Positions 8,339 through 44,006 of a stretch of DNA of 64,000 bases are shown piece by piece; position 1 is the stretch's first letter; the number at the start of each line of letters is the position of its first letter. This stretch comes from Nitrospira sp. (GTDB taxonomy: Bacteria; Nitrospirota; Nitrospiria; Nitrospirales; Nitrospiraceae): NCBI GenBank assembly GCA_016788885.1, contig JAEURX010000018.1, forward strand, positions 1-64,000. Direction: 5' to 3'. The position numbers were made by a program, and so were the translations under genes. The notes beneath the pieces are model-generated. The model searched no databases. It was not told where the DNA came from and saw only the letters and a program-made list of their open reading frames with translations.

Positions 8339-8422
8339 CGGGCTGATGGCCAAGAAATGCCCGCACCCTATGTTCATCAGTGCAATCGTACGGGGCTTTT
8401 TTAAATGGGAGGAATGTCTTCT

Positions 8423-20567: not shown

Positions 20568-20574
20568 CGATGGC

Positions 20575-21399: not shown

Positions 21400-21460
21400 G
21401 GTGACCTCTTTTCATACTGGCAGACACGTGCAACGACCTCAAGTCAGGAGATGACCACGG

Positions 21461-23230: not shown

Positions 23231-23259
23231 GGAGATATCCTTTTTCCTTAGATCAAAAC

Positions 23260-24498: not shown

Positions 24499-24501
24499 GA
24501 A

Positions 24502-25113
24502 CTAGGGCACCATCACGACGTCGCCGCGCTGCAAGATGATATTCTGTTCGAGATCATTGCCTTTCCGTACATCACCGTACCGGAAGGGGAATGTATACTG
24601 TTGTCCCATCACCCGGCGCACAACCTTGATGTCGTTTTCTGCTGCAAACGGAGTCAATCCTCCGGCGAGGCTCAGCGCCTGCAGGACATCGGTATAGTGG
24701 CCGACCAGGAATTCGCCGGGTTTCGCGACACGACCGACGACATAGACTTTGTAACTTAAGGGTTTCACGACGGAAACCGTGATGTTGACGGCAGGAATAT
24801 ATTTGATCAGCCGTTTCGCGAGATCTAACCGGAGTTCCTCCACCGTTCTACCTTCGGCCGGAATATCCCCGACGAGAGGAAAGGAAATCATGCCATCCGG
24901 CCGGACGACCACTTCTTTGGTCAGATGCTCGTCTTTCCAGACAGAAATGAGCAGAACATCCTCGGGGCCGAGTTGGTACCCTTGCTCAGAAGCGGATGCC
25001 TCCTTGGATATGCCGCGCATGTCGGCGGATTGACAGCTCACAGTGGCGACCAGGAACATTCCGATGATCAACCCCAGCGTGATTCTCTGAACGATCTTGA
25101 AACGCAGCTGCAT
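24502..25113 (-). CDS. Wza-like polysaccharide export lipoprotein
   Basis: A 203-residue lipoprotein: signal peptide with lipobox LVATVSC (Cys near 27), the polysaccharide-export (Poly_export) domain about 45-130 (YQLGPEDVLLISVWKDEHL, VRPDGMISFPLVGDI), and one SLBB-type domain (YVVGRVAKPGEF) after it. It forms the periplasmic/outer-membrane part of the export channel in Wzx/Wzy-dependent systems and matches the short form found in PEP-CTERM loci. AGGAG lies 9 bases before the ATG. It sits 13 bp after the TPR gene stop. Confidence 0.9.
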   Translation of the reverse strand: MQLRFKIVQRITLGLIIGMFLVATVSCQSADMRGISKEASASEQGYQLGPEDVLLISVWKDEHLTKEVVVRPDGMISFPLVGDIPAEGRTVEELRLDLAKRLIKYIPAVNITVSVVKPLSYKVYVVGRVAKPGEFLVGHYTDVLQALSLAGGLTPFAAENDIKVVRRVMGQQYTFPFRYGDVRKGNDLEQNIILQRGDVVMVP

Positions 25114-25125
25114 AGTTCATGACTC

Positions 25126-27534
25126 CTATCCGTTCGTTCGGGCGAGTAGTTGTTGTGCTTCCCGTCGCCCTTGGAATTGTTCTGTACTCTTAAGTGCTTT
25201 TGCGAGGTATATCTTGGCTTCACCATTTCGGCCCGACTGATGCAACGCCGCGCCAAGGTGATAATTGAGCGTCGGGAGGTCTGGGGCCTTCACAATCGCT
25301 TGCCGCATGATGCGAACCGCTTCTTCGAGATGTCCCATTTTCAGCCGCACCCAGGCCAGCGTATCGAGAAACAGCGGGTGCGGGGCGTCTTTTTCGAACT
25401 CCCGGCTCAAGAGAAATGCACGTTCAAGATTCGGCGCATCCTGTTTGTAATCGGCCAGCAGTGCCGCCAGATTGTTCGCCGAGAAAATATTGCGCGGATT
25501 CATGCGCAACACGGCGTCATAGGCTGCAATGGCCTCATCGACCGCATTCTGGCTCGCCAGTACCGACGCCAACAACATCTGTAACTCTTCACTGGCAGGG
25601 TTCGCGTTCAATCCTTCTCTCAGCGTTCGAACTGCGTCGTCTGCCTGTCCCTGGGCTATCGAGAGTGTTGCCGCGTCCAACCAAGGGGTGAGCCAGCGTG
25701 GATTGATTTTGATCGCATCACGGAAGTGGGCCATGGCCGAATCCCGCCGTCCCATAAGGGTCAACACTTCTCCTATCAAGCCGTGGGCGTAGGGATGATC
25801 GGGATGTGCGGCAATGATACTTTCCAGGCGGCGTCGTGCACGTTCGGTCTGTTTATTGTGAATATCGAGCTGGACGACGGCCACCAGAGGTCCCTGTGCA
25901 TCAACGGCCATTGCTGCCGCACGCTCATAGGCTGCCACGGCCTGAGCGTATTCCTTTCGGCTCTCGTAGAGCTTACCTTCCGCCATGAGTATCGCGGCGG
26001 TTTCTCCCTCCAATTGTCGGAGACGGCTCAGCAGCGAGGCGGCATGACTCCAATCGCCGGCCGCCAGGTCCAAGCCGAACAAGAGCTCCATTGCCTGCTG
26101 ATGGTCGGGGTGAGAGGTCAAGATGGCTTTCAGGCGCGCCCTGGCGTTTTGAGACTGGCCGCTTCGACTCTCCATCGTCGCGAGTGCTAATTTCGCATCG
26201 AGCAAGCTAGGCTGCAGTGCCACCGATCGCTCGAAACTTTCACGGGCTAATGCTGAGTCTCCCGTCGTCATGTACGCTTGGCCGAGCAGATACTGTACGT
26301 GGGCGAGTTCCGGCTGATCGCGAAGGACCGTTCGGAATGCCTGTACGGCGTCCTTACCGTTTCGTCCAATCAACGCCATCTTGCCCTGCAAGATCAACCC
26401 CTGGGCCGACCGGGGGTTCTGCCGCAACACGTCCGACAGTCGCCGCTCGGCTTCCTCTTGACGCCCGGCGTTGAACGCGAGCTGCGCGATTTTGACCTGC
26501 GCATCCAACCCGGCCGGCTTCTTGTCGTAGTCCTTCGCCAAAGTTTCATAGACCAGCTTTGCTTCTGCGAAATCTTGATGAGACTCATACAGCGCGGCCA
26601 GGGCGAACGGGATCTGCGTGGAATAGGGCAACTGTTTCGCAGCTTGCCGCAGCGCGACCTGCGCTGCCTCCCTTCCCCTGCGCATGTTCAAAAAGTCGGC
26701 CAAGGCCAGCCAGGCCTGCTCGTTCTCAGGGAATACTTTGAGCGCGTCGCGCAGTATGGCTTCGGCCTGATCAGTCGCGTGGTGCTGGTCGAAAAAACGA
26801 GCCAGCTTCAGCCGATGGTCATATACCGTCGGTTCTTCCTGAATGATCTGGCGTAGCACCTGTTCCGTGGCCTTGTCGTCGTGAGCATCGACGAGGATAG
26901 CTTTTAGATTGTGCAGGAGATCCAGATGATGCGGATGTGCTTGAAGCGCACGCTGCAACGTCGCTCTGGCATCCGGCAAGCGATGATTCTGACCATACAG
27001 TGTGGCCAGGAGAATAGCGACATCGGGTTCGGTCGGGTGCTTTTTGCTCAACGCTTCCGCGCGCGCCGTCGCCTGATCCATTCTGTCCTGCTGTCCGAGC
27101 AACGCAATCTTCAGGGCCTGCGCCTGCGGGTCTTGCGGATGTTTTTCGAGAACCTTGTCTGCCGTCCGTCCCACTTCCTCCCCTAGTTTGGCTTCGAGGT
27201 AGTACTTAGCCAAGACAATGAGGGCCTCTTTGTGGTCCGGCACGATATCGATGACCTGTTGGTAGTTGGCGACGGCATTGCGCCAGTTTTTTTCCTTTTC
27301 TTCTACTTGTGCCACGAGAAAGTAGGCGTCCGCGTCTTTGGGATCGATCTTCAATACGTTTCGTAATGCCACCCGAGCCTTCGGGAAGTTCCCTGCCTGG
27401 ATGTACTCCTGCGCCTTGGCGCGGTATTGCGCCTTACGTTCTTGCGGGCCTCCGCACGCCATGAGGCTGACTATGAGCACTGACAATCCGGCGTGTCGCA
27501 CCGTCTGCAGTATGAAGATGACGGTCGTGGTCAT
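25126..27534 (-). CDS. prsT: PrsT-type TPR-repeat lipoprotein of the PEP-CTERM system
   Basis: An 802-residue protein with a signal segment and lipobox SLMAC near residue 27, then about 20 TPR-like helix pairs filling the rest (e.g. AKARVALRNVLKIDPKDADAY-type units repeated every 34 residues). It matches the large TPR lipoprotein family that accompanies exosortase loci (PEP_TPR_lipo/PrsT). The ATG at 27534 has GAGGTGAG in front and sits 14 bp from the upstream stop. A scaffold for polymer secretion or for sorting of PEP-CTERM-like proteins is inferred from context. Confidence 0.87.
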   Translation of the reverse strand: MTTTVIFILQTVRHAGLSVLIVSLMACGGPQERKAQYRAKAQEYIQAGNFPKARVALRNVLKIDPKDADAYFLVAQVEEKEKNWRNAVANYQQVIDIVPDHKEALIVLAKYYLEAKLGEEVGRTADKVLEKHPQDPQAQALKIALLGQQDRMDQATARAEALSKKHPTEPDVAILLATLYGQNHRLPDARATLQRALQAHPHHLDLLHNLKAILVDAHDDKATEQVLRQIIQEEPTVYDHRLKLARFFDQHHATDQAEAILRDALKVFPENEQAWLALADFLNMRRGREAAQVALRQAAKQLPYSTQIPFALAALYESHQDFAEAKLVYETLAKDYDKKPAGLDAQVKIAQLAFNAGRQEEAERRLSDVLRQNPRSAQGLILQGKMALIGRNGKDAVQAFRTVLRDQPELAHVQYLLGQAYMTTGDSALARESFERSVALQPSLLDAKLALATMESRSGQSQNARARLKAILTSHPDHQQAMELLFGLDLAAGDWSHAASLLSRLRQLEGETAAILMAEGKLYESRKEYAQAVAAYERAAAMAVDAQGPLVAVVQLDIHNKQTERARRRLESIIAAHPDHPYAHGLIGEVLTLMGRRDSAMAHFRDAIKINPRWLTPWLDAATLSIAQGQADDAVRTLREGLNANPASEELQMLLASVLASQNAVDEAIAAYDAVLRMNPRNIFSANNLAALLADYKQDAPNLERAFLLSREFEKDAPHPLFLDTLAWVRLKMGHLEEAVRIMRQAIVKAPDLPTLNYHLGAALHQSGRNGEAKIYLAKALKSTEQFQGRREAQQLLARTNG

Positions 27535-27547
27535 CGACTCACCTCGC

Positions 27548-29176
27548 TCATAGCCATGCCTTGATTCCCAATCCAAGTAAGATCCACAAGGACACGAGAC
27601 CAAACTGTCTCATTCGCTCGGCAAAGGTATGCAAAAGTAACTCAAACGAGAAATACAGCACGATCAACTTGGCGGCCAGAATGCTCAGCGTCGGCATGTC
27701 GGCACGCATTTCCGGCAGCAAGGGGACGATCAAGGCAAAAAACACCATCAGATAATCCAACGGCGTGGTTTGAAATCGATTGCCACGGCTAAAGCGCATG
27801 CTCAACAACACCAGGAGGGCAATTAGCGCCAGAAGTGTATTGTGCGTGACATAGATAGGCCAGATGTCGGACATGCCGGATTGCTCTCCCATGTACATCA
27901 GAAATGCGCTACCCACATAGAGCCCTCCACGCACGAAATGTGAGCGGTATTCGGGGAAGAGCCACAGGCCCACGAGCACCACGGCGAACAGGCTCAACGC
28001 TGCGTATCCGACATCCATTGGAACTCGTCCCGGTAAGAAGACGTTCGCGACCAAAAAGAGTGGAACGACGACGGCCAGAAACCTGGGGGCCATATCGCTG
28101 AGCCACAATCCTGCTCTGGCCAGTTTAGTGTCGGAGAGTACGCGGCCGCTCGATGAGACCGACAACGGAACACGGCGTCGTTCAGTTGCAACGAACAGGG
28201 CGAACATAGCCGTGGCAAAAGCGCCATACATGGTGAAAATCAGGGCATCGGATTGCCAGCGTAGGAGATATGCGAGGCCGACCATCACCGCCTGAATTCC
28301 ATAGATCACGATGACGGCTTCATAGTGAGACAGTCCAAGCGCCAGCAGCTTGTGGTGCACATGGTTCCGATCGCCGATGAAGGGTGAGCGGCCCTTCGCA
28401 ATCCGTTGCGCCATGACGGCAATGGTGTCGAGAAATGGTAATCCGAGAACGAGCAGTCCGACCGATACCGGGAAAGGAGTACGGGATGGATCACTCAACA
28501 CCAGTACGAGCACCCCCATCGAAAAGCCGAGTAATTGACTGCCCGCGTCGCCCATAAAAATTCTGGCCGGATAGGTGTTATATCGCAAGAACCCCAGTAA
28601 TCCGCCTAGGAATCCCGCTGCCAGCACTAACAGGGTGATGTCGTGCGACAGATAGGTGAGATAGGCAATGCCGGCAAAACTCAGGAATGCCAGACCTCCG
28701 GCCAATCCATCGAGGCCGTCGGAGAGGTTGACGGCGTTCGAGGCCCCGACCAGAAAGACAACGGTCAAGGGCACCGTTAACCACAGCGGCGCTTCTTCTT
28801 CGTAGAAAAACGGGATCTGTTCGAAGCGAATGTGGCCGATGACGACCACCACGAAGACAGCCAGTAATTGCCCGATGAGTTTGGTGCGGTAGTTCAGGTT
28901 GGCACGGTCGTCCCAAATACCGAATCCCAGGATGATCGCCGCGCTCACCAATACCGGCGGAATGATCGGATCCTGAGGCACCCAAAAGAAAATAGAGAGG
29001 AGTGCCGCGAATCCGAACGCGATGCCGCCCACCCGCGGGATTGGATTTGCATGGACTTTTCTCTCGCCTGGAAGGTCCATGAAGCTCCAACGCCCGGCAT
29101 TCAGCTGCAGCGGCGGGATCAATGCCATGCAGATGAACAGAGAGGTGATGAAGCTGAAAAAGACCGCACTCGTCAT
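27548..29176 (-). CDS. WecA/MraY-family polyprenyl-phosphate sugar-1-phosphate transferase, extended
   Basis: A 542-residue integral membrane protein. Residues 1-330 carry family-4 motifs: Asp-rich DDRANL-type loop (GIWDDRANLNY), NLSDGLDGLAGG, FMGDAGSQLLGF and the RNHVHHKLL His box. Such enzymes load the first sugar phosphate onto undecaprenyl phosphate, and GlcNAc-type substrates are usual. About 200 further residues with five or six membrane helices follow, beyond the usual 320-370-residue length, function unknown. It starts 2 bp after the exosortase stop. WecB at 49556 could feed the same lipid-linked sugar pathway. Confidence 0.85.
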   Translation of the reverse strand: MTSAVFFSFITSLFICMALIPPLQLNAGRWSFMDLPGERKVHANPIPRVGGIAFGFAALLSIFFWVPQDPIIPPVLVSAAIILGFGIWDDRANLNYRTKLIGQLLAVFVVVVIGHIRFEQIPFFYEEEAPLWLTVPLTVVFLVGASNAVNLSDGLDGLAGGLAFLSFAGIAYLTYLSHDITLLVLAAGFLGGLLGFLRYNTYPARIFMGDAGSQLLGFSMGVLVLVLSDPSRTPFPVSVGLLVLGLPFLDTIAVMAQRIAKGRSPFIGDRNHVHHKLLALGLSHYEAVIVIYGIQAVMVGLAYLLRWQSDALIFTMYGAFATAMFALFVATERRRVPLSVSSSGRVLSDTKLARAGLWLSDMAPRFLAVVVPLFLVANVFLPGRVPMDVGYAALSLFAVVLVGLWLFPEYRSHFVRGGLYVGSAFLMYMGEQSGMSDIWPIYVTHNTLLALIALLVLLSMRFSRGNRFQTTPLDYLMVFFALIVPLLPEMRADMPTLSILAAKLIVLYFSFELLLHTFAERMRQFGLVSLWILLGLGIKAWL

Positions 29177-29178
29177 GG

Positions 29179-30723
29179 TCAGTCCGGAATATACCGATTC
29201 AGTTGAGGTTGAATGCGTTGTGCAAATTGCAGCAATCGCTGCTCGACGGCTTGCTCATCGTCACCAGGATCGACGGCGGCGGATAGTCGAATCAGGGCTC
29301 CGTCGCTTCGTTGTCTGGTCATCGCATCCCACAACAAATATAGTTTCACCAGATACTCATTCGACAGAATCCGATCACGCTGTTTAAACCAATAGACCAC
29401 TAGCTGTTTCTGTCGATCTTTTTGGATTAGCACGCGATTGACCGGTTCGGTGAGTCCGCCAATCGGCAGATCCACTTTTTGCTTGGAGGTGATTTCCCAT
29501 CCGCCGCCGGGGATACAGCTTTGCGGGGAATGTGCGGATTGGCCCTTACGCTGCGAGTGGTAGTAGGCCATGTACAGCGTGAGAGGTCCCCCTCCCGGTG
29601 CCGCATAATCGGCCAGCAAGTAATCATCAAACCGCAGGGCCGAGATGAGTTGCGGCTCCACCGGCTGTGGGTTTCCCTGCCACTCCCCGATGCGCATAGA
29701 AAAATCGACAAACGCCGAACGATCCGGAACGATCTCTTGCCGTCCCCCGATAGATGGGAACAGGAGCGTAACGGGAAGAATCAGGGCCAAGCTCCCGACA
29801 TAGGCGGGAATCTTGGACTGTGTCCGAGGTGGCATGCCCGGTGTGATCGTGACCGATTCCGCCGATTCCGGAGCGATGTCCCAGGAAAACCGTTCCGAGA
29901 GCTTCGTTGACCCAGGCAGAGGATGAACCTTCGATAAGATCCACATTTCGAGCAGGAGGAGGCCCAGGGTAGCGAGGAACAATACCCAGCCTTCAAAAAG
30001 GTGTAGGAATCCCTCGGCCGCTTGTGGCCCATAGAACTCTACGAGCACGCCGACAATGCCGATACGGAGGCCATTGATGAAGATTGAAACAGGCAAGGCC
30101 GATATCACCAGCAGAAGCCGTTTCCACAGGCGTTCGCGATACAGATAGGCACTGAGGAGAGCCAGCGCGGTGAGGGGGAAGAGGTACCGGATACCACTGC
30201 AGGCTTCGGCGACCTGTAATTGAACTGGGCCAAGGTCGATCACATTACCCTCTCTGAAGGCCGTGACTCCGATGGCCTGTAAAAATCCGACCCCCAGCGC
30301 CGACGACCACAACTGTAGCTGGCTTGAGAGGGTGTTGTAGATAAAGATGGGCAGAGGGATAGCGGTCAACAGATACGTCAACGGGAAAGCCAATACTCGC
30401 AGGGCAGGCCGGCCAATGAAGGAGAGGGTGACGCCAACGATCACGATCCACAATGAGAGATGAAGCAAGACATACAGCGTGGCATAGTCTCCCAGTATGA
30501 ACAGCAGCAATCCGATGGCAACAAGCAAAGGCCCTTCCCAGGAAGGGGACATCCCGACTGCCGCCAATTGCGCTCGTCGTTGCCAAATGAGAAACGCACT
30601 GATGATCGGAATGAATGGCCCATGGCTATAGTCGTCCCGCCCCCATTGGCCAAATAGAAACACTAAGCTGTCGGCGTAGATGTAGCCCAATGCGGCTACA
30701 GTCAGTAATCCGATGACAGCCAA
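29179..30723 (-). CDS. xrtD: Exosortase fused to EpsI domain, VPLPA-CTERM type (XrtD-like)
   Basis: A 514-residue protein. The exosortase half (1-270) has about eight membrane helices and the catalytic triad: Cys175 in AEACSGIRYL, Arg220 in NGLR and His241 in FLHLFEGW. The C-terminal half (about 300-514) is an EpsI-type domain (YYHSQRKGQ, SPQSCIPGGGW, VYWFKQRDR). It cuts and sorts proteins bearing a C-terminal VPLPA/PEP-type signal during export. The nearest upstream gene encodes a protein with such a signal, so the class is inferred to be VPLPA-specific. The start is a TTG at 30723 with AGGTG 4 bases upstream, just after a strong hairpin. Confidence 0.85.
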   Translation of the reverse strand: MAVIGLLTVAALGYIYADSLVFLFGQWGRDDYSHGPFIPIISAFLIWQRRAQLAAVGMSPSWEGPLLVAIGLLLFILGDYATLYVLLHLSLWIVIVGVTLSFIGRPALRVLAFPLTYLLTAIPLPIFIYNTLSSQLQLWSSALGVGFLQAIGVTAFREGNVIDLGPVQLQVAEACSGIRYLFPLTALALLSAYLYRERLWKRLLLVISALPVSIFINGLRIGIVGVLVEFYGPQAAEGFLHLFEGWVLFLATLGLLLLEMWILSKVHPLPGSTKLSERFSWDIAPESAESVTITPGMPPRTQSKIPAYVGSLALILPVTLLFPSIGGRQEIVPDRSAFVDFSMRIGEWQGNPQPVEPQLISALRFDDYLLADYAAPGGGPLTLYMAYYHSQRKGQSAHSPQSCIPGGGWEITSKQKVDLPIGGLTEPVNRVLIQKDRQKQLVVYWFKQRDRILSNEYLVKLYLLWDAMTRQRSDGALIRLSAAVDPGDDEQAVEQRLLQFAQRIQPQLNRYIPD

Positions 30724-30858: not shown

Positions 30859-31545
30859 TTACGACTCTTTTCTCGTCACCAGACCACGAGAACCCAGACC
30901 GACCAGTGCGATCAATCCTGCGCCGAACAACCACACTGCCGCCGGCAACGGTACGAGAGACTGCAACGCGCCCTGCACTCTCGTGCTGGCAGAGCCAAAA
31001 AGCAGGCGGAACTCAGAGCGTGCGAAAGATGACAGGCTGGGTCCGCCTGCCGGGAGTGCATCGCTGGAGAATGCCCTACCAGTTGGATCCGTCAGTTCGA
31101 GCGTGAACCTGCTTGGCGAAAAGCCATTAACTGGGCTCCCAGACAAGGCGGTGATGTTAAGTTCGTAAATGTCGCTGCCGGCACCAGGAGCATTGTTCGT
31201 GATTCTGACGAAGCTAGTGAGCGGCGCATATGTGGCAACATACGTACCGACACTCAGTGAGAAATCCTGAATGGCGTTATACCGTCCGATGGTGGAAGTT
31301 GCATTGGAGTCTCTCGCCAGCGGATTGATGGTGATGCCTCCTGATACTGGAAGAGCAGTGGTAAAGCCGTCTGCCCCAAAACCATTCGGGGTGAAGACTC
31401 CGCCGAACACGTCTCCGACGGATCCAGTGAAGTTGAAGGAAATTGACGCTGCTTGGCCGCGATCAGGTGCCATGAGCACCGCACACAGTAACCCTGCTCC
31501 GAGGCCGATCATGGTTCGCACAGTCTTTCGATTGCTCTTAGTCAT
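30859..31545 (-). CDS. VPLPA-CTERM sorting-signal protein
   Basis: A 228-residue secreted protein. It has a signal peptide (hydrophobic 11-26, cleavage near RGQAA), a beta-rich mature region with many Asn, Ser and Gly residues, and a C-terminal sorting tail (198-228): VPLPAAVWLFGAGLIALVG, then a basic end (RGLVTRKES). This tripartite motif-helix-basic layout is the VPLPA variant of PEP-CTERM. The start is set by AGGAGG before the ATG at 31545. It is adjacent to the exosortase and is its obvious local substrate. The function of the mature domain is unknown; surface or matrix protein likely. Confidence 0.85.
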   Translation of the reverse strand: MTKSNRKTVRTMIGLGAGLLCAVLMAPDRGQAASISFNFTGSVGDVFGGVFTPNGFGADGFTTALPVSGGITINPLARDSNATSTIGRYNAIQDFSLSVGTYVATYAPLTSFVRITNNAPGAGSDIYELNITALSGSPVNGFSPSRFTLELTDPTGRAFSSDALPAGGPSLSSFARSEFRLLFGSASTRVQGALQSLVPLPAAVWLFGAGLIALVGLGSRGLVTRKES

Positions 31546-31934
31546 TCTCTTTCCTCCTGGACGAGACAAACGCCAACTCAAATAATCAGCGTGTAAAACT
31601 ACGTATAGACACATTTAGTGCGAATTCTACCGGCATCTTGGACAGTACTCAAAACTGAATAGCAGCGCAAGGATTTTTTGTAAAAACGAAAAATATTTCT
31701 ACGTATCCGACAAGGCTGTATGGATTCTCCTACAGGCATGTCGAACTGAACTCTGAATGCTGTGCGCACTGTGTGTCAAAATATGACACTCAAGGATAAG
31801 GCTGGGGCCAGGTGGACCTATCATGGCAGGTCATGTTGGAGCCTGGGGAGACCTACGAGACTAGTTGTGAACTTCTTTTCGTATAGGCCCTCCCTTTCAC
31901 CGAGACGAAGGTGGAGCCATCCGTGCGACACAAC
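31546..31934. other. Intergenic, upstream of the VPLPA-CTERM gene
   Basis: About 390 bp with locally AT-rich stretches around 31670-31700 (T- and A-runs), likely holding the promoter of the VPLPA gene. No gene, terminator hairpin or convincing -24/-12 or -35/-10 pair could be fixed by eye. Confidence 0.4.
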
Positions 31935-32837
31935 TCATGGTTGAGCCGGTGGCAATTTCTTCATAAAGTCTTTTGTCACTTTCCACCAGGCAGCATTGTC
32001 GTCCCAGTTCATTCGCCCGTTGGCACCCCACCCACCCCAAATGACAATTCCATCGGCATATTGCTTGGCCATTTGAAGTTGAAGTCTCCAGAAATCAGCC
32101 GGCAAGGGGGCTCCTTTGAGCGATGGATTAGAGTCGTGGTACTGCGACCATAAAAATACATATACTGGCTTTCCGTTGGCATTACGTCGCGCCTCTGCTA
32201 TTTGCGCGTATGCATAGCGCACCCATCCACCCTGGTCGGTATAGAAGGTGTACAGCGAGGGAAAGAGGATATCCACCGCTCCCGCCAAAGGTCGGAGCTG
32301 ATCATTCTCCTTGGCAAAGGATGCCCATTCCTTGCTCATGGGAGGCTTGAGGGACTTCCAGTAATCGCGTATTGGTGGCGCGCCATAATAACCCACCGGC
32401 AACCCAGGCGCTGCCTCCTTGAACCATTGGAGCACGGTCATATACTTCGATAAGCTGGCACGCACCCGGTTGGGATCCCCAACCAACGGCCAATGTTCGA
32501 TATCGATGACAACAGGAAAATTCTTTGCCAAGGCTTCGCTAGCGACCTGCCGAACAACGCTCTTATCAGGCAACGCATCGGGATTTTTGTACCACTGATT
32601 TCCGAATTGGCCTGTATACGCGATCGAGATGGGGCGGATGCTATACACCGACAAGTCTGGCTTGCCAGCATACATTGTCCCGTCAAACACCATAAATGAC
32701 TTTTGATTGGGCAAGGCTTGTGCGTGCACGACTGGTTCCACTACCCCACTGACAAACCAGAAAGCTGAGAATATCCCGAGCACCACCGCAACTATGGTCG
32801 CGAAAATGATGGGGCCTCTCTGTGTCATGTTCATCAT
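31935..32837 (-). CDS. Secreted GH56 hyaluronidase-like protein (copy A)
   Basis: A 300-residue protein with an N-terminal membrane anchor/signal (about 8-33). Ordered motifs parallel eukaryotic GH56 hyaluronidases: VVIDIEHW (Asp112, Glu114; compare the catalytic DxExW), VGYYG, KENDQL, LFPSLY (191-196), a kPVYVFLWSQY strand and ADGIVIWGGWG (about 262-271) near the end. GH56 enzymes are retaining TIM-barrel endo-hexosaminidases acting on hyaluronan or chondroitin. The assignment is by remembered motif order, not search. The start at 32837 is supported by GAGGAG 7 bases upstream. It is a tandem paralogue of the gene at 33411, beside the exosortase operon, so polymer trimming is plausible. Confidence 0.65.
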   Translation of the reverse strand: MMNMTQRGPIIFATIVAVVLGIFSAFWFVSGVVEPVVHAQALPNQKSFMVFDGTMYAGKPDLSVYSIRPISIAYTGQFGNQWYKNPDALPDKSVVRQVASEALAKNFPVVIDIEHWPLVGDPNRVRASLSKYMTVLQWFKEAAPGLPVGYYGAPPIRDYWKSLKPPMSKEWASFAKENDQLRPLAGAVDILFPSLYTFYTDQGGWVRYAYAQIAEARRNANGKPVYVFLWSQYHDSNPSLKGAPLPADFWRLQLQMAKQYADGIVIWGGWGANGRMNWDDNAAWWKVTKDFMKKLPPAQP

Positions 32838-33410
32838 GTGTACTCTCCTCATCCGTTCCTACAAACGATTGTTTCATGCACCGTCGAGCGTCTCTGCAAC
32901 TTCCATCAGACGAGTGAGCCTGATGCGAGGCCATTAAGGGATTGCAGAACAAGCAAGCACGCGATGCATACATGTTCATCGGTTGCAAGCAATGACAACT
33001 TGATTAACGCCGATGAGCGCATGCATTCTTTCCTGAAATCTGACAGGAAGGCGTGAAGACTGAATGTGTCGCGTCACTCGCCAAATTAAACGTAAATGTT
33101 AACACTCAAGTAAAGCAACTTAAGAGTGAAAACTGTCAAGTGTGAACGATGAGATTACATGCACGATCGTATGGTCGAAGTGGTGGGAGCAGAGGCTAAT
33201 CAGGCAGCGAGTGGCGATAAAAAGAAACTGCGGAAGCAGATGGGGTGCAGGAATGACACAAGTGATGTATCGATATGAAGCAATGATCGTGTCAAACTGT
33301 CTGTCGTTTATCTGTTCATGATCTAACCATCCCGCTGAAGAGAATTGTTGCCGATAGCAACGAGCAGGCTCTCACCGTCTCGGCCAGTAGGCTGAGCATA
33401 CATAGTGTTG
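32838..33410. other. Intergenic between the two GH56-like genes
   Basis: About 570 bp, AT-richer than its flanks, with no protein-like frame preceded by a ribosome site. It presumably carries an independent promoter for copy A. No repeat or RNA gene was recognised. Confidence 0.4.
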
Positions 33411-34319
33411 TTATTCTGCCTTTGGATTGCCCGACGCTCTTGGTCCCTGAATCGTCTTGATAAAGTCTTTGGTCACCTTCCACCAAGTCGCATCGTCGTC
33501 CCATTTCGCTGGCCGATTGTTACTTCCCCACCCACCCCACAGGATGATCCCATCGGCGTACTGCCTCGCAGTGTCCAGTTCAAGCCTCCAGTAATCGGCG
33601 GGTAGGTATGTTCCCGCGAGCATGCGATTGGAGTTGTGGTACTGCGGCCATAAGAATACGTATACCGGTTTGCCTTTCCCGTATCGACGTGCTTCTTCAA
33701 TTTGGGCCCGAGCAAACCGCACCCACCCTTCCTGATCCGAATAAAACGTATACAGGGAGGGATATAGCGTATCTACTGCATCAGCAAGGCTGCGAAGTGC
33801 ATCGTTTTCTTGTTTCCATGTTCCCCACTCTCTACTTGCGGGTCCTTTCATAACTCGCCAGTAGTCGCGTATGGGAGGGACTCCGTAAAAGCCGACGTTG
33901 AGACTAGGGACTGCCTCCTTGAACCACTCCAGCACGGCGAGGAACTTTCGAATACTTCTCCCCACTTCTTGGGCATCACCATGGAGCGGCCAATGTTCGA
34001 TATCAATCACCACGTGATCAGCCCGTGTTCGGGACTCTCGAGCTACTTTTTCAACCTGCTTCTTATCGGGCAGTTGCTCCGGAGAGCGATGCCAGTCTGT
34101 CCCAAGCGCTCCGGCATAGGCGAGTGAGATGGGGCGTATGCCGTACGCAGAAAAATCGGGCTTATCTTTGTACAGGGTTCCGTCAAAGAGGAGAAACGAT
34201 CGTTCCTCACCAGCTTGTTGGCCGAGGGCTAGAGAAGTCGGAAGGAGCATACTCCAGAGAGCCATGGCTACCATTCCATAGGTGCAGACAATTCTCGCGA
34301 GGTGTTTACGAGAGAGCAT
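33411..34319 (-). CDS. Secreted GH56 hyaluronidase-like protein (copy B)
   Basis: A 302-residue paralogue of copy A with the same motifs: VVIDIEHW (Asp106, Glu108), VGFYG, QENDAL, LYPSLY, KPVYVFLWPQY and ADGIILWGGWG. The last 70 residues are especially similar between copies. The signal peptide spans about 8-33 (cleavage near LALGQQ). The ATG at 34319 has GGAGGGAAG directly upstream and gives a length equal to copy A; longer starts, including an ATG at 34385 overlapping the glycosyltransferase stop, are less likely. It lies downstream of glycosyltransferase genes on the same strand. Confidence 0.65.
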   Translation of the reverse strand: MLSRKHLARIVCTYGMVAMALWSMLLPTSLALGQQAGEERSFLLFDGTLYKDKPDFSAYGIRPISLAYAGALGTDWHRSPEQLPDKKQVEKVARESRTRADHVVIDIEHWPLHGDAQEVGRSIRKFLAVLEWFKEAVPSLNVGFYGVPPIRDYWRVMKGPASREWGTWKQENDALRSLADAVDTLYPSLYTFYSDQEGWVRFARAQIEEARRYGKGKPVYVFLWPQYHNSNRMLAGTYLPADYWRLELDTARQYADGIILWGGWGSNNRPAKWDDDATWWKVTKDFIKTIQGPRASGNPKAE

Positions 34320-34381: not shown

Positions 34382-35602
34382 TCATGCGCGATGATCCGCG
34401 CAGTTCTTGAGGAGCAACCGCCAAGCACGCTCGGCTCGAGTTTTGTCGAATTGAGCGTCGAACAAATCTCTTGCGTTTTGGCCATAACGCGCACATTTGG
34501 CGGTGTCTTTCGCGAGCGAACGAATAATCTCTGCAGCTGATTCGGCTTGGCCTAGTGGAACGGCAAATCCACAATTCGACTCGCGTAGTATTCGAGGGAC
34601 TTCTCCCTCTGTATCGCCTAGATAAAGTGTTGGTCGCCCTGCGGCGGCAATTCCATAAAATTTGCTAGGAACGATCAGCCCTTCGAGTGATGGCTGTAGC
34701 GAGATAAGATGGAGATCCGGAACACAAAGACTGAGGTGCAGCTGTTCACGAGGTTGGTAGGGTTTAAACACCACGTTAGTCAGGCCCTTCTGGACAAGCG
34801 CTCCTCTCAACCAATCGTGTTGAGCTCCGCCTCCGATGAATACGAATATGATGTGGTTCTCATTTCGGAGCAACTGCACCACATCTAGGATCGTTTTGAA
34901 GTCATGTGCCCTACCGAAGTTTCCCGAGTACCCAACCACAAAGCGATGTTGCAGGTTCCACTCACGCCTGAGTTCGTTGTGTTCTCGATCAATGGGACGA
35001 ATGGCCTGTCCATCCGCCCAATTGTGAATAACTTGAATGTTCTCGGCAGGAATGCCCTCTCTTTCCAGCCTGAGCTGCATTTGCTTGCCGATCACGACAT
35101 TCCATTTGGCAGACAAGAGAGACCAATTTCGAAGAGATCGCAGGCTCCAGAAGAACTTTCCCGCCCGTCCACCGAGCAAGCTTGAGACAACTTCGGGAAA
35201 TAAGTCCTGAATCCAATTGACCAGAAGTGCACCCCGGAGTCGAGTCACCATTGCAGCGAGAACCGAGATCAACGGCGGGTCGGTTTTGGCCACGATGACA
35301 TCGTCTTTTTTCGTCAGTGCGAGTAAACTCCAGAGGGCACTTGCGTAAAACGTGGCATAGTCGAGCGTCCGGCCAGGTAAGTGCCGCCGGCCGAACATGG
35401 TGGACCAGACGCGAACGACACGGACGCCTTGCTCGTTGGCTCTTGCGGGGTAGAGCGCCAGTGGGTTGTCGTAGGTTTGCCGGCTTGTCACGACAGCAAC
35501 CTCATACCCCGCTTCTGCGAGGTGAACCGTCACGTCCGTCAACAATTGACTCGTTGCAGAGTGATCAGGAAAAAAAAAACGATTGACGAAAACGATCTTC
35601 AT
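34382..35602 (-). CDS. Glycosyltransferase family 4 (WbuB-like)
   Basis: A 406-residue GT-B enzyme. The N-terminal domain begins MKIVFVNRFFFPDHSATSQLL and contains WIQDLFPEVV. The C-terminal nucleotide-sugar domain has VVGYSGNFGRAHDF, FIGGGAQHDWL and the GLIVPSKFYGIAAAGRPTLYLG region typical of GT4. It probably transfers a sugar (Fuc/NAc-sugar in WbuB homologues) to the lipid-linked repeat unit at the cytoplasmic face. It follows the GT2 gene at 35606 by 3 bp, so they are co-transcribed. Confidence 0.85.
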   Translation of the reverse strand: MKIVFVNRFFFPDHSATSQLLTDVTVHLAEAGYEVAVVTSRQTYDNPLALYPARANEQGVRVVRVWSTMFGRRHLPGRTLDYATFYASALWSLLALTKKDDVIVAKTDPPLISVLAAMVTRLRGALLVNWIQDLFPEVVSSLLGGRAGKFFWSLRSLRNWSLLSAKWNVVIGKQMQLRLEREGIPAENIQVIHNWADGQAIRPIDREHNELRREWNLQHRFVVGYSGNFGRAHDFKTILDVVQLLRNENHIIFVFIGGGAQHDWLRGALVQKGLTNVVFKPYQPREQLHLSLCVPDLHLISLQPSLEGLIVPSKFYGIAAAGRPTLYLGDTEGEVPRILRESNCGFAVPLGQAESAAEIIRSLAKDTAKCARYGQNARDLFDAQFDKTRAERAWRLLLKNCADHRA

Positions 35603-35605
35603 CTT

Positions 35606-36511
35606 CTACTTGTGAGCTGTTGAGGAATCATTGTCGAGAACACAAGCTCCTCTCTCGAGACGCTGCAACTCATAACAGCAGGCATCGACGTAAAATCTAA
35701 ACCAAAACCCCTGTAACCCGTGATAGATCAACCCAGGAGTGCCGTCAAGAAACCCGCCTCTGATCACGTATCGAGTGACGAAATAGAGAAGCGCTCGAAA
35801 AAACATGGGCATCCTTGAATAGAGGCTTGATCGCAGCCACCGCCTTCTCTCAATGGGCGATCCGATCAATTTGGCTTGAACGGCAACCGACGCGTCCCTT
35901 CCCGGCCCCTTGAACAGTTCGCGGGCTTCCATTTGTGCCCACTTATTGTGCCGCGCAGTCCATGAAAAGAGGGATGTGGCGGTCAGTTCGAGTAAATCTG
36001 CTTCTATGAGGGCAGTGCGGCCTTCGACGAGGAAATGCTGGTCATATTCCCGGTCTTCACAACGGCCGGATTGCCTTCGAAAGACTCTGCAGTGGTACGT
36101 GGGATACAGGCCACCGTGGACAATTGGTTTTCCGAAAAAGATGATTTTTCGTCGGACCATATATCCCGCGTAATCCTGTGTCGAATGCGACCTCCCGGCA
36201 AACAGTTCACCAAGTCGAGCAGCAAGTTCCGGCGATACTCGTTCATCAGCGTCGATATGAAATACCCATTCATGCGACAGCGGCACATTATTCTGTGCCC
36301 AATTTCTCTGGTGTGAGTAGTTTTGGAAAGGATGCGTAAGGACTTTCGCCCCGTACTTGCTGACAATGTCCAATGTCCGATCCGTGCTTCCCGAATCGAC
36401 AACAAAGATCTCCTGCGCCCATGAAACAATACTTTCCAAACATGGCCCAATATTCTGCTCTTCATTGAATGTAAGAACGATGACGGATAGGGGCAATTTC
36501 TCTGGTGACAT
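35606..36511 (-). CDS. Glycosyltransferase family 2 (WaaE/KdtX-like)
   Basis: About 301 residues from the ATG at 36511 (the frame continues to 36589). A GT-A fold is evident: LSVIVLTFNEEQNIGPCLES at the start, the VDSGSTDRT motif, the DxD-type HIDADERV and the NKWAQMEARELF region seen in LPS-core GT2 enzymes such as WaaE. A C-terminal hydrophobic stretch (FFRALLYFVTRYVIRGGFLDG) suggests membrane association. It lies between two other glycosyltransferase genes in the operon. Confidence 0.85.
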   Translation of the reverse strand: MSPEKLPLSVIVLTFNEEQNIGPCLESIVSWAQEIFVVDSGSTDRTLDIVSKYGAKVLTHPFQNYSHQRNWAQNNVPLSHEWVFHIDADERVSPELAARLGELFAGRSHSTQDYAGYMVRRKIIFFGKPIVHGGLYPTYHCRVFRRQSGRCEDREYDQHFLVEGRTALIEADLLELTATSLFSWTARHNKWAQMEARELFKGPGRDASVAVQAKLIGSPIERRRWLRSSLYSRMPMFFRALLYFVTRYVIRGGFLDGTPGLIYHGLQGFWFRFYVDACCYELQRLERGACVLDNDSSTAHK

Positions 36512-36685
36512 TCGTTTTCTCTGTGAATACAAGCAGTGTGTTGGCAGGAAACTGACCTGCTCAATTGGCCTTGACAGAAGACCGGCCACTCAGTTTATGC
36601 GCGTATGTTGCTGACAGGGTTCCATTCACTTGGGCGGGTTACCCTCCAGGTTACCTGCCACCAATTGGTTCTCCGGCCCATGAAA

Positions 36686-37618
36686 TCAGGCGAGCGGAGC
36701 TAATCGAGCAGCGATTTCTTCGTAGGGAACGAATCGTCGCCTGTTTAGCTCAACGAAAAGTCTAAACGTTTGGAGAGAGATCGGGGTTCGTTTTCCCAGT
36801 TTGGCGAAACAGGAAGCATACCCACGCACGATTCCTTCAAGGGCAATGGGCAGCTGGCGAATGTTGCTTGCGCCTCTTGCGACGCAACGCGCGGTTTGAA
36901 GGCCCAGCAATGGAATCAGCACGGGCAGTGGCGCTGTATACCATGATGCCAATATCATGTTTCGGTAAAGCCATACATTTTTCCCTCGCTTATGCCTACC
37001 CTCTGTCGCCGGAAAATGATGTATTGGGTCGGTCATAGCCAACCGTACCACTCTGCCAGCATTCAGCATTCGCTGAGAGTATTCAGGCTCTTCGCCCCAG
37101 TGAAAAAGATGGCCTTGAAACCCTCCCAAAGCCAAAAATAGATCACGTCGTACAGCATAGCCGGCACCTGTAAAAGCATGCATAACCCAGAACGCGTGCT
37201 TTTCACTTGGCCTGCCTGCATAAAACTCTCGCGGAACTCCCCCAATAATGTTGATTAAGGGTAGTGCTAATGCCCCCACTCGTTCCTCTGAAAAATGTGG
37301 TAGTGCCTGAGAAATAATATTTGGAGTAGAAAAAATCGCATCATCATCTAAGGAGAAAACAATGGGGCTCGTGGCAATTTCTGCTGCACGGTTTCTTTGT
37401 ACAATCAGTCCGCAGCGAGTCTCGGTTGCCACAAGTCGCACCATTGGGAACTCCGCTGTTACCATTTCGCCGGTCCCATCAGTGGAAGCATCATCCATCA
37501 CAATAATTTCGACTTCCTCTTGTTGCGCTAGGGTGGATGTGATGGCATCCCTAAGCAACTCTTTCCTATTCCGAGTGGTGATAACGACCGTTGCTGCATA
37601 TTTTTTGCTTCCGTTCAT
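36686..37618 (-). CDS. Glycosyltransferase family 2
   Basis: A 310-residue GT-A enzyme: ATVVITTRNRKELLRDAI, IIVMDDASTDGT, the DxD-like FSLDDDAIF, and the GGFQGHLFHWGEEPEYSQR acceptor-loop motif. The C-terminal third is amphipathic (residues about 225-270 hydrophobic). Its start codon overlaps the preceding acetyltransferase stop (ATGA, 37615-37618). The donor sugar cannot be told from sequence. Confidence 0.85.
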   Translation of the reverse strand: MNGSKKYAATVVITTRNRKELLRDAITSTLAQQEEVEIIVMDDASTDGTGEMVTAEFPMVRLVATETRCGLIVQRNRAAEIATSPIVFSLDDDAIFSTPNIISQALPHFSEERVGALALPLINIIGGVPREFYAGRPSEKHAFWVMHAFTGAGYAVRRDLFLALGGFQGHLFHWGEEPEYSQRMLNAGRVVRLAMTDPIHHFPATEGRHKRGKNVWLYRNMILASWYTAPLPVLIPLLGLQTARCVARGASNIRQLPIALEGIVRGYASCFAKLGKRTPISLQTFRLFVELNRRRFVPYEEIAARLAPLA

Positions 37619-38256
37619 ACGTCTCCCTGGCCACCTGCATCATTGAGGGTCCGGTTTCTTACGACCCGCGCTGGGTTGCCACACACAACAACCCAAGGCC
37701 TCACATCACGCATCACCGTTGATCGCGCTCCTACCACTGATCCCTCACCGACTGTGACCCCTGGGCCTATGAAGACATCCGCTGCCACCCAGGCTCCATT
37801 TTCAATGACTATTGGCGAGGAGATGAGAGGCATGTTCTGCTCCGTATAGTCGTGACTGGCCGTGCACAAAAAACTGTATTGACTGACCGTGGCGTGTGGG
37901 CCCAATCGGATCGTGTTGACGGAGTAACAATCCACCTTTTCTGACAGACAGCTGTGCTCTCCCATCTCCAAGTTCCACGGTGCCCATATGTCAGCAGATG
38001 GGTAAGGGTGAGCCCCTCGACCGACTTTTGCTCCAAAAAGCCGTAGGAGAGCGCGCCGCCAGGCGTGAAAGGGACGAGGGCTTGGACGATATAGCGTTCG
38101 CCATACGGCCCGCCAAAGGAGTCGAGCAAGCTTGTTCCAGAGTGAATGCGGACTCGGACAATGCGAGAGATTTACTGCTATATCATCGTCAGCTTTGTGT
38201 GCCATGTGTTCAGAGCCCGGCAGTTGCGCTTCCGCTACTTGGCCCATGGAGGGCAA
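37615..38256 (-). CDS. WcaF-like hexapeptide-repeat acetyltransferase
   Basis: Up to 213 residues. Family similarity begins with SPHSLWNKLARLLWRAVW, as in colanic-acid WcaF-type enzymes. Hexapeptide repeats forming the left-handed beta-helix follow (IWAPWNLEMGEHSCL, VIENGAWVAADVFIGPGVTV, VVGARSTVMRDV, ending WVVVCGNPARVVRNR). It acetylates a sugar of the repeat unit. The start is uncertain: the outermost codon is TTG (38256), with ATGs at 38247 and 38205. The stop is coupled to the following GT2 gene. Confidence 0.82.
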   Translation of the reverse strand: MPSMGQVAEAQLPGSEHMAHKADDDIAVNLSHCPSPHSLWNKLARLLWRAVWRTLYRPSPRPFHAWRRALLRLFGAKVGRGAHPYPSADIWAPWNLEMGEHSCLSEKVDCYSVNTIRLGPHATVSQYSFLCTASHDYTEQNMPLISSPIVIENGAWVAADVFIGPGVTVGEGSVVGARSTVMRDVRPWVVVCGNPARVVRNRTLNDAGGQGDV

Positions 38257-38804
38257 AATTCCGGTCTCACCACTGCCCCCTCGAGCATTTGTTCATGCGT
38301 CTGTCGATCCTTTGGATCGGGAAATCGCTCTCCAATTTTTCGATTCGGCACTCCGCCGTGAATTTCAAAAGGTGGCACGTTTTTGGTCACCACCGTGCCC
38401 GCACCTATGATGGCGCCGCGGCCAATGGTCACCCCTGAAAAAATAATTGCCCCAAAGCCAATCCAGACATCCTCACCGATATACGTTCTCTTCAATCCTG
38501 GTCGTCCCGAAAAAATTATCGGTTTGCCTGGGATGTCGTGGAGGTGATCTCCGCCGACAACGGCCACATATGGCGCGAGCATGGCGTATCGACCTAGCTC
38601 AACCTTGGGTCCGAGTATACATCCGATGTTGACAAAGCTGTATTCATGGGCAGCCAGATCACTCGACACCCGACAGCCGCGCGCCATGTAAAACGTATGG
38701 TGGACATTATTCAATCCAAAGCGCCAGCGGCGGTATGTCATGAGACCTTGTCGAGCCAGCTTGTAGCTCCAATCCGTGGACCGTATCAGGTTAAGAAAAT
38801 TCAT
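38235..38804 (-). CDS. Hexapeptide-repeat O-acyltransferase
   Basis: A 189-residue left-handed beta-helix enzyme with repeats such as YIGEDVWIGFGAIIFSGVTI and GRGAIIGAGTVVTKNV, a catalytic-type His region (GGDHLHD) and a C-terminal GVPNRKIGERF. It resembles NeuD/VatD-like sugar O-acetyltransferases. It overlaps the next acetyltransferase by about 22 nt if the outer start of that gene is used. Two acetyltransferases in tandem suggest a heavily O-acetylated polymer. Confidence 0.82.
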   Translation of the reverse strand: MNFLNLIRSTDWSYKLARQGLMTYRRWRFGLNNVHHTFYMARGCRVSSDLAAHEYSFVNIGCILGPKVELGRYAMLAPYVAVVGGDHLHDIPGKPIIFSGRPGLKRTYIGEDVWIGFGAIIFSGVTIGRGAIIGAGTVVTKNVPPFEIHGGVPNRKIGERFPDPKDRQTHEQMLEGAVVRPEFCPPWAK

Positions 38805-38837
38805 TAAACTACTTCGTAGGCATGTCGTAAGCCGTAA

Positions 38838-40007
38838 TCAAGTTTGGCCTTCAGCAGGGCAACCCGCCACAGCACGCGCAATGATATTCGCCTGATACTG
38901 CGGGTTGTAAAACCTCTCCATTATCGCAATGCACTCTTGCCGTGCCGTCGCGTCTGGCCATGGGCGATGGATCCATCGTTTTAATACCTCTGCCAGATCC
39001 ACTACATCACCATGCCGAAACAGGTCCCCTGTTTTTCCTGGAACAATAGCTTCCGACTCAGGCATCTGATTGTGCACATCGTCATGTGTCACCACGGGAA
39101 CTCCATAGGCCAGGCTGTGCATCGCGGTCAAACCGACCTGCCCTGGAGACACTGTTAGATTCGCGGACATGATCAGTTCCGCCAGGCGTTCCTCCTCATA
39201 GCAAGCACCAAAAAAATGAACGCTGAGCCCTCGCTCTAAAGCCCTCGCCCTCAATGCCGCTTCTTCTGGCCCTTCTCCCACTAGTAGGAGAGAGGTGTGG
39301 AGGCCCTCATCGAGCAACAAAAACATGGCGTCAAGCAAGAGGTCTATGCGTTTTAGTTTGTTCAATCTCCCGGTGCATATTAGGACTGGGCAGGCAGCAT
39401 TCTTAAAAAACTGGTTTCGAATGCTGGAAAGGCGGGACCGTTCGATGGCCTCTCTTAATTCACTCTGATGTCTATAGTCCAAACTGTTATAAATGACGTA
39501 GAGGTTCTCCTTGGGAAACCCGTTTCTTATTCCAATCGCTTTCGCCCTATTGCCGTACAGCAATAAACCGTGTGCGAGCCTATAAAACAAATTCCTAACA
39601 AGCCGTTTCAGGCCACGCTCATCCCTCACCCACCCGTGCGTCCAAAATAAAACTCGCTTCCCCAGCAGCCTCGCCAGGCCAGCCGAACACCACGTACTTA
39701 AAAAATTCGCATTCCCCAGAAAAATTATTGCGTCCGTTTCTGGTTGCATCGCGAGGCGCAACAACCCCTTTTGCCAAATGAAATTCGCGCCGAGTCTAAA
39801 GCAAGGAGACCAACGCCATCGATCCTTGGGCGGCTCCCATGCCTCGATCTCGTTACTGGGTTCATGTAAATCGCTTATCAAGAAATAATCGATGGCCTCC
39901 GACGCTAGCAGCGTCTGCATGATCGCCGCGCGGTAATGGGCAAAAAAGTGATAGACAACTGCAACGCGCCGCTTTTCAATACGAGAGCAAACCGTCGATT
40001 CACTCAT
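38838..40007 (-). CDS. Glycosyltransferase family 4
   Basis: A 389-residue GT-B enzyme from the ATG at 40007 (AGAGAG upstream). The longer frame to 40244 would overlap the upstream polymerase gene. Elements seen: VVYHFFAHYRAAIMQTLL, LFWTHGWVRDERG, ICTGRLNKLKRIDLLLDA, LLVGEGPEEAALRARA and the HSLAYGVPVVTHDD E-x7-E-like donor region. It starts 7 bp after the polymerase stop. Confidence 0.82.
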   Translation of the reverse strand: MSESTVCSRIEKRRVAVVYHFFAHYRAAIMQTLLASEAIDYFLISDLHEPSNEIEAWEPPKDRWRWSPCFRLGANFIWQKGLLRLAMQPETDAIIFLGNANFLSTWCSAGLARLLGKRVLFWTHGWVRDERGLKRLVRNLFYRLAHGLLLYGNRAKAIGIRNGFPKENLYVIYNSLDYRHQSELREAIERSRLSSIRNQFFKNAACPVLICTGRLNKLKRIDLLLDAMFLLLDEGLHTSLLLVGEGPEEAALRARALERGLSVHFFGACYEEERLAELIMSANLTVSPGQVGLTAMHSLAYGVPVVTHDDVHNQMPESEAIVPGKTGDLFRHGDVVDLAEVLKRWIHRPWPDATARQECIAIMERFYNPQYQANIIARAVAGCPAEGQT

Positions 40008-40014
40008 ATCTCTC

Positions 40015-41355
40015 TTACGACGACGCCTGGTTGGACAGATATCCAAAAGAAAGACTGGAAACCTCGGTTGGGGATTGGGCATTGGAGCCTCTTCTTGCCA
40101 GGACTTTCTCGAATCGTCCCAGCCCGATCCCCAACATAAAGGGTTCAAGATTAACCAGTAGACTTCCCTGCTTGAGCGAAAGGATGACTGTGAACAGATA
40201 CATGCCGAGAAGGCCAGCCACGAGCATTTTAAAATCCGAATCACCTTGCGACAAATGAAGTGCCCTGTAGGAAGAACGAAGCGTCAGGAGGAAGATCACT
40301 GCGTACAAAGCAAAGCCGAACACGCCTTCTTCGGCGAGCACCTCTAACGGTAGAAAATGCGGATAAATTCCGAGTATGCGATGGTCGTAGGCTGCTGAAT
40401 TGCCGAGGCCAAAGATAAAGGTGGTTGGTGTTTCAGCGGCGAGTTCTACCATTAGCAAAGCATTGTCAAGCCGCCCGGAAACATCCTGTTGGGCGGATTG
40501 TTCGTTCCATCTTCCCTTTCCGCTTGCAACCTCTTTTCCCCAAAATTCTTGCATGGTCCAACCGATCGCGACGCTGATAAACAGTACTACCAGGGCAAGA
40601 ACAGCAAATTGCTTCACGTTTCTGAGTCCACGACTAATTGGCCAGCACAAGAGGCAAGCTACCAGTACTGCTAGCAATTGTCCGCGAGAGCCTGAGCGCA
40701 CAATCAACGCCAATGCCAGCGCGACGAATGCCCACTTTAGGGGAAACGACACAGCGGATCGTGGCCAGGGCTCAGTCAGAATGAGAATTATCACCACCAG
40801 GCCCGCCATTGCGGCAATGGCAAGTGGATTTCCTAAATTGCCATCAAGCACTATTCGCCGTGAGTCCCACTTCACAAAGAAGAGTAAGAGCACGGACAGA
40901 ATTCCTCCAATCAGCGCCAATCCAGCATTTGCTGCATGGATGTCTCGAGCCTCAGTAATCAACAAAGGACACAGCAATATAATGGTAACAAGGTACGGCC
41001 AGCGGCTTGCCCACAGATTCAAACTAAGATCTGGGCGAGGTGCCCACTGAGTAGACGCAAATGCATAGAGAAAAAATGCCATGGTGAGCCAACCGATTGC
41101 GGGGTATCCCTTAAAAAGATCTAATCCTTTTCGGATGAATTGAATCGTGAGAGCGAATACTAGAATTCCACCAATTAGCAGATTTGTTGCGCTCTGATGA
41201 TGAGCGAAAAATCTCGTAGTCGCTTGCCCCCACTGCTCTAACCCGAACATGCACAGGACACCTGCTATTGCCACAGCGGGATGCTTGATGGAGACAACAA
41301 CGAGGAAGAAACAGATGCTTCCATATGCAAGTAGCCCGATCGTACCAGAGACCAT
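40015..41355 (-). CDS. O-antigen polymerase/ligase family protein (Wzy-like)
   Basis: A 446-residue inner-membrane protein with 11-12 hydrophobic helices. The O-antigen ligase/polymerase (Wzy_C) signature lies in the large periplasmic loop and after it: RSGSRGQLLAVLVA, then YPHFLPLEVLAEEGVFGFALY. It polymerises the repeat units delivered by the flippase encoded upstream. A polymerase is more likely than a WaaL ligase because an exporter, a Wzz-like protein and a flippase share the locus. Confidence 0.8.
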   Translation of the reverse strand: MVSGTIGLLAYGSICFFLVVVSIKHPAVAIAGVLCMFGLEQWGQATTRFFAHHQSATNLLIGGILVFALTIQFIRKGLDLFKGYPAIGWLTMAFFLYAFASTQWAPRPDLSLNLWASRWPYLVTIILLCPLLITEARDIHAANAGLALIGGILSVLLLFFVKWDSRRIVLDGNLGNPLAIAAMAGLVVIILILTEPWPRSAVSFPLKWAFVALALALIVRSGSRGQLLAVLVACLLCWPISRGLRNVKQFAVLALVVLFISVAIGWTMQEFWGKEVASGKGRWNEQSAQQDVSGRLDNALLMVELAAETPTTFIFGLGNSAAYDHRILGIYPHFLPLEVLAEEGVFGFALYAVIFLLTLRSSYRALHLSQGDSDFKMLVAGLLGMYLFTVILSLKQGSLLVNLEPFMLGIGLGRFEKVLARRGSNAQSPTEVSSLSFGYLSNQASS

Positions 41356-41478
41356 GATTGAATCTTCTGCCTAGAGTATGGTTCTTCGCTTACGATATCT
41401 TTCAGATGGCATGGCAGCGGAGCATCTGCCATTATCCATAAAGCATCCGGCCGTTAATTATTATGATTCTTCTGCAAG

Positions 41479-43011: not shown

Positions 43012-43065
43012 TTTTTGAATATAGGAACGGATTAATCTAATGAACTCGCGCGCGTCGCATCGGAT

Positions 43066-43992: not shown

Positions 43993-44006
43993 TGTGCAGC
44001 CAGAGT

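Follow-up and report, generated by a model that had tools for sequence, protein, structure and literature searches.

Tandem secreted GH56-like proteins encoded in an XrtD-linked exopolysaccharide cluster of Nitrospira

The first 64,000 nucleotides of contig JAEURX010000018.1 from Nitrospira sp. (assembly GCA_016788885.1; this whole stretch is called the window) encode two neighbouring proteins, P1 and P2, inside a Wzy-type exopolysaccharide (EPS) cluster that also contains the exosortase XrtD. P1 and P2 are probably secreted, divergent members of a bacterial and phage branch of glycoside hydrolase family GH56, acting as endo-beta-hexosaminidases that cut the EPS of the surrounding Wzy/XrtD cluster. 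The basis for this reading is homology, predicted fold, a conserved catalytic set, locus context and purifying selection.

Judged by sequence comparison, the relation of P1 and P2 to GH56 is more than chance, because both pass the curated cut-off of Pfam PF01630 (26.9 bits for P1 and 33.3 bits for P2, against 23.2) and because GH56 sequences rank first in the PDB before a drop to E 1.2. The PF01630 match is confined to profile positions 156-306. Among single PDB sequences, bee venom hyaluronidase comes closest to P2 (E 6e-4). When 13 bacterial and phage relatives are combined into a profile, the PDB's full set of four distinct GH56 sequences takes the top places (E 6e-12 for the bee enzyme, then 3e-8, 2e-7 and 1e-4), the next match being the one at E 1.2, and a wider profile of 27 relatives finds the bee enzyme at E 6e-14 and its first non-GH56 match at E 0.056. 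Several relatives of the same branch (L003, L032, L034) have no PF01630 match, and neither an NCBIfam search nor a PHROGs search with P2 returned a family. Since Pfam already catches both P1 and P2, their GH56 membership is discoverable by standard annotation; what is new is the association with EPS clusters, the exchange for other polysaccharide-active enzymes, and the presence of copies in phages.

Structure prediction points the same way. AlphaFold models, built from sequences of the window, of viruses and of genome contigs alone, have GH56 enzymes as their best PDB matches, with bee hyaluronidase at Z 18.9 for P2 (pLDDT 80; rmsd 3.3 over 237 residues) and Z 18.0 for P1 (pLDDT 77; rmsd 3.1 over 232 residues). 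The predicted fold is thus a hyaluronidase-type beta/alpha barrel, and the kinship proposed in an initial annotation of the window, which had named a profile search and a predicted structure as its checks, is borne out by Pfam, by the PDB profile ranking and by both models.

The residues D111, E113, Y184, Y227 and W301 of the bee enzyme are essential and strictly conserved in GH56 (PMC13080975), and equivalents of all five are present in P1 and P2 in a joint sequence alignment. In sequence, the DxE pair of each protein lines up with D111/E113 of the bee enzyme and D107/E109 of the wasp enzyme, the catalytic acids on which the initial annotation had expected a structural overlay, and the Glu of DIE (Glu108 of P2) is invariant across 27 aligned relatives. 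With the 27-relative profile, the wasp catalytic stretch VIDFERW aligns with vlDiEhw as a separate segment that is insignificant alone; the link to the bee enzyme runs through Planctomycete bridge sequences, whose alignment with it begins at residue 84 and carries the DxE across.

The two proteins are 56% identical, and both open reading frames lie on the minus strand with every previously listed motif in order. Numbered from the first ATG, these are DIEHW 117, GYYG 154, END 182, PSLYTF 198 and ADGIVIWGG 266 in P1, and DIEHW 106, GFYG 143, END 171, PSLYTF 187 and ADGIILWGG 255 in P2. P2 starts at the ATG given in Table 1, not at the TTG of the mechanical reading frame. The start of P1 is probably Met6 (window 32837), where AGGAG lies ahead as a better ribosome site than that of the first ATG. 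The numbering Asp112/Glu114 first given for the acidic pair arose because P1 was counted from Met6, and it holds for P1 only if that start is the true one; in P2 the pair is Asp106/Glu108. A hydrophobic N-terminal signal segment can be read directly in both proteins, in agreement with the secretion proposed earlier. Orthologues of P1 have a ratio of nonsynonymous to synonymous substitution (dN/dS) of 0.05-0.15, about 0.1, that is, purifying selection; in comparisons of P2 the synonymous sites are saturated.

As active enzymes, P1 and P2 would cut the cell's own EPS next to an N-acetylhexosamine, during or after export, and so might set chain length or loosen the matrix. If the mechanism of GH56 (PMC13080975, PMC12254123) carries over, the Glu of DIE would donate a proton to the oxygen of the glycosidic bond, the sugar in subsite -1 would attack its own anomeric carbon through its 2-acetamido group (substrate-assisted catalysis), the Asp, the two Tyr and the Trp would hold and stabilise an oxazoline-type intermediate, and a water activated by the Glu would complete the hydrolysis, with retention. 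We infer that the EPS polymer contains a hexosamine, for which the WecA-type initiating enzyme and WecB, in or near the cluster, count. Most likely the bacterium trims its own slime rather than attacking animal tissue.

The initial annotation had placed the pair beside an exosortase/polymer locus, and XrtD, well above its cut-off, does lie inside the EPS cluster. The EPS link is stronger than could be known from the window, holding in most gene-carrying genomes of the family and in Planctomycetota. Other species of the genus conserve the order glycosyltransferase - GH56 - (GH56) - VPLPA-CTERM - XrtD - WecA-like - TPR - export. In loci from other genera of the family, an exosortase lies within about 5 kb of the GH56 gene in 9/9 read; the order glycosyltransferase - GH56 - XrtD is found in most of these nine and in the intact copies within the genus, and a relative of the VPLPA-CTERM protein in only some of the nine. 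In most relatives the WcaI-like glycosyltransferase is again the adjoining gene. Near the GH56 gene of L077 and of two Planctomycetota loci (L003, L081) no exosortase was seen; in the latter two, the gene's neighbours include a glycosyltransferase and a polymerase relative.

Within the genus, 16 of 29 genomes have a close XrtD, and GH56 occurs in 7 of these 16 (one copy decayed, in G020) versus 0 of the other 13 (Fisher p 0.008, kinship ignored). In eight of the nine XrtD loci that lack GH56, proteins of the heparinase II/III-like, GHL10 or BNR_4 kind are encoded (three of the heparinase calls rest on 52-53% BLAST identity to the heparinase-like protein of the window). The G020 cluster (L030; G020:C37:76000-95000) looks decayed: stops and frame breaks interrupt its GH56 copies and several of its glycosyltransferase genes, with XrtD and the export genes less affected.

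Several observations weigh against an EPS-cutting GH56 pair, or limit it. Bee R116, the Arg after DxExW that bee, wasp and human HYAL1 retain, is Pro in P1 and P2, and bee Y265 is Phe, which suggests a differing specificity. The mature proteins are cysteine-free (P1 has no Cys, P2 only Cys12, in the signal segment), so that the two catalytic-domain disulfides, an accompanying but non-defining feature of animal GH56 enzymes, are absent. In two phage relatives (L024, L034) the Asp is replaced by Asn or Lys, with the Glu kept, and part of the branch may for this reason use another mechanism or be inactive. Replacement by other enzymes is only partial, since the heparinase-like protein coexists with GH56 in the window and the swap is therefore not strict; the GH56-free locus L088 shows no replacement in the 16 kb read. 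Because of the Arg to Pro and Tyr to Phe changes and the missing cysteines, hyaluronan is an unlikely substrate, and the name hyaluronidase (EC 3.2.1.35, cleavage of hyaluronan or chondroitin at beta-1,4 hexosamine bonds) is not claimed here for P1 or P2.

There are other ways to read the pair. GH56 enzymes elsewhere digest external glycans (PMC11669647), and signal segments imply export, so P1 and P2 could be catabolic or matrix-dispersal enzymes that digest the glycans of other organisms, hyaluronan and chondroitin included, for food. This is unlikely, as the genes sit inside an EPS biosynthesis and export cluster in most carrier genomes, no genes for sugar uptake or catabolism were recognised next to P1 and P2, and the Arg after DxExW is replaced. 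It is likewise improbable that the proteins are dead or weak GH56-fold EPS binders, serving as export guides or matrix adhesins, or that the pair combines one enzyme with one binder: the altered phage relatives do indicate that the branch tolerates partial loss of the site, but both copies in the window keep the full five-residue set, the Glu does not vary among the relatives, and the P1 orthologues are under purifying selection.

Transglycosylation has been shown by GH56 hyaluronidases (PMC11669647), and the pair adjoins an exosortase and its presumed substrate gene, which would suit enzymes that modify EPS or link it, for instance to the VPLPA-CTERM protein, rather than simple hydrolases; we think this very unlikely, given that phages have homologues too, and so do EPS clusters (L003, L081) in which no exosortase turned up. 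Membership in another clan of TIM-barrel hydrolases, such as the GH164 or GH113 mannosidases, with only the common barrel shared with GH56, would find some encouragement in the GH164 beta-mannosidases, which come next against both models at Z 15-16. Their identity, however, is 8-9%, against 15-23% for GH56, the five GH56 landmarks are kept, and the sequence profiles pick out no family but GH56, the next match lying far behind. Simple shared-barrel likeness was rejected on the strength of these profiles, and the probability of another clan is very small indeed.

PslG, PelA, BcsZ and AlgL are periplasmic EPS hydrolases or lyases, glycan cutters tied to the export of their own polymer. P1 and P2 would likewise be glycan-cutting, though PslG and the others belong to other families and act on different polymers. 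A comparable case is PrmQ, a GH16 enzyme of the Sphingomonas promonan EPS cluster whose loss gives rugose colonies (PMC11340318): it too is a glycoside hydrolase that is exported and whose gene belongs to a Wzy-type EPS cluster, and it works like the role proposed for P1 and P2, with no homology claimed between GH16 and the GH56-like pair. The animal enzymes (bee venom hyaluronidase 1fcq, wasp, HYAL1, PH-20) resemble P1 and P2 in predicted fold (Z 16-19), DxExW, the Y184/Y227/W301 equivalents and the END helix. They differ in sequence (15-23% identity), in cysteines and in the R116 and Y265 positions, and P1 and P2 have a shorter loop after DxExW and a bacterial EPS locus.

GH56 is treated as a family of animal and venom enzymes. 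No report of a bacterial GH56 enzyme was found in the open literature searched, and a review from 2024 on microbial enzymes that degrade hyaluronan assigns none of them to GH56 (PMC11669647). A GH56 branch found in bacterial EPS clusters and in phages could yield new hexosamine-cutting enzymes for biofilm and floc control and would suggest a source of the animal hyaluronidases, while a cutting enzyme would offer a way to read the polymer of XrtD exosortase loci.

The tree groups the P1 type with four other members of the genus (support 100/99), with P2 types branching around that clade; on this topology, the duplication is older than the divergence of these species. The GH56 branch occurs in 16/246 genomes of the phylum, in 5/294 Planctomycetota, in viral contigs and on a Burkholderia plasmid; a single scan of genome contigs found one relative only, and a search of the phages collection gave no match. 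The viral contig L024 carries genes for tail completion, major tail and tape measure proteins, and L034 for a tail spike and a terminase. Like depolymerases, the phage homologues adjoin tail genes, including, for one homologue, a tail spike gene. It may be, although we lean slightly the other way, that this branch, absent from the enzymology literature searched, consists of bacterial EPS-processing endo-hexosaminidases tied to Wzy/exosortase clusters, which phages took up as depolymerases. In that case, GH56 would be first and foremost a family of microbial EPS degraders, with the animal hyaluronidases as one specialised twig.

A second bacterial GH56 lineage, from Planctomycetota (L096-L099; genomes G314, G452, G375 and G282), bears on the origin of animal GH56. 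It shares the GH56 landmarks and the DxE with P1 and P2, and differs from them in scoring 75-90 Pfam bits over the DxE region and in clustering with the animal hyaluronidases (support 100/100). No exosortase was seen in the 3.8 kb read around these genes, which adjoin a multi-pass membrane protein with no Pfam match. Phage protein L036 at first grouped with animal GH56; this placement was rejected as unstable, as it moved once bridge sequences were added, and an apparent fused N-terminal domain of L082-L084 (Planctomycetota) was dismissed as an artefact of long reading frames, the start with its signal segment lying inside. On the Burkholderia arboris plasmid NZ_CP101526.1, L031:9884-10879 encodes a GH56-like protein that is very divergent (24% to P2, 31.0 Pfam bits, DxE kept) and for which the plasmid table has no annotated gene.

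Features of the window and of the viral contigs are collected in Table 1. In the presumed XrtD substrate, the VPLPAAVWLFGAGLI motif, a hydrophobic stretch and a basic end are legible directly in the sequence. Sigma-54 (-24/-12) sites, expected for PEP-CTERM genes, number 4, versus 5.2 expected by chance.

Table 1. Coordinates of P1, P2, the EPS locus and viral homologues (window positions unless a contig is named)
Feature	Position	Strand	Remarks
P2, secreted GH56-like protein	33411..34319	minus	302 aa; start ATG 34319 after AAGGAGG
P2 Asp106-Ile-Glu108	33996..34004	minus	equivalent of bee D111/E113
P1, tandem paralogue of P2	31935..32852	minus	305 aa from first ATG
P1 Asp117-Ile-Glu119	32496..32504	minus	Asp112/Glu114 if numbered from Met6
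WcaI-like glycosyltransferase	34382..35602	minus	directly upstream of P2; NF007640 155 bits, below cut-off
Secreted protein with VPLPA-CTERM sorting end, presumed XrtD substrate	30859..31614	minus	TIGR03370 E 6e-4, 19.8 bits, below cut-off 25.35
XrtD exosortase with EpsI domain	29179..30723	minus	TIGR04152 547.6 bits (cut-off 400); TIGR02914 148.9 bits (cut-off 42.8)
WecA/MraY-type polyprenyl-phosphate sugar-1-phosphate transferase, initiating enzyme	27548..29176	minus	TIGR02380 154.8 bits, below cut-off 326
PEP-CTERM/EPS export block: ATPase, tyrosine kinase, chain-length regulator, outer-membrane protein, export protein, PrsT-like TPR protein	19167..27603	minus	best matches TIGR03015, 03018, 03007, 03016, 03027, 02917, all under curated cut-offs
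Further EPS cluster: glycosyltransferases, two acetyltransferases	35606..44061	minus	
Wzy_C-type polymerase/ligase	40015-41355	minus	within 35606..44061
MOP flippase	41479-43011	minus	within 35606..44061
GDP-mannose 4,6-dehydratase (Gmd)	46223-47317	minus	TIGR01472 553.9 bits, above cut-off
Heparinase II/III-like protein	47586-49460	plus	PF07940 130 bits
WecB UDP-GlcNAc 2-epimerase	49556-50656	minus	TIGR00236 312.7 bits, above cut-off
Viral GH56-like proteins	L024:2238-3014, L032:4707-5753, L033:890-1663, L034:1740-2534, L036:4821-5744, L039:4986-6008		

Elsewhere in the window, reading by eye picks out a long chain with globin, PAS and methyl-accepting chemotaxis domains, a globin-coupled sensor (57679-59991, minus strand), and two phosphate-binding PstS-like genes (213-1331 and 8405-9433, plus strand) that flank response regulators and, with them, precede pstCAB-phoU-ppx-like genes.
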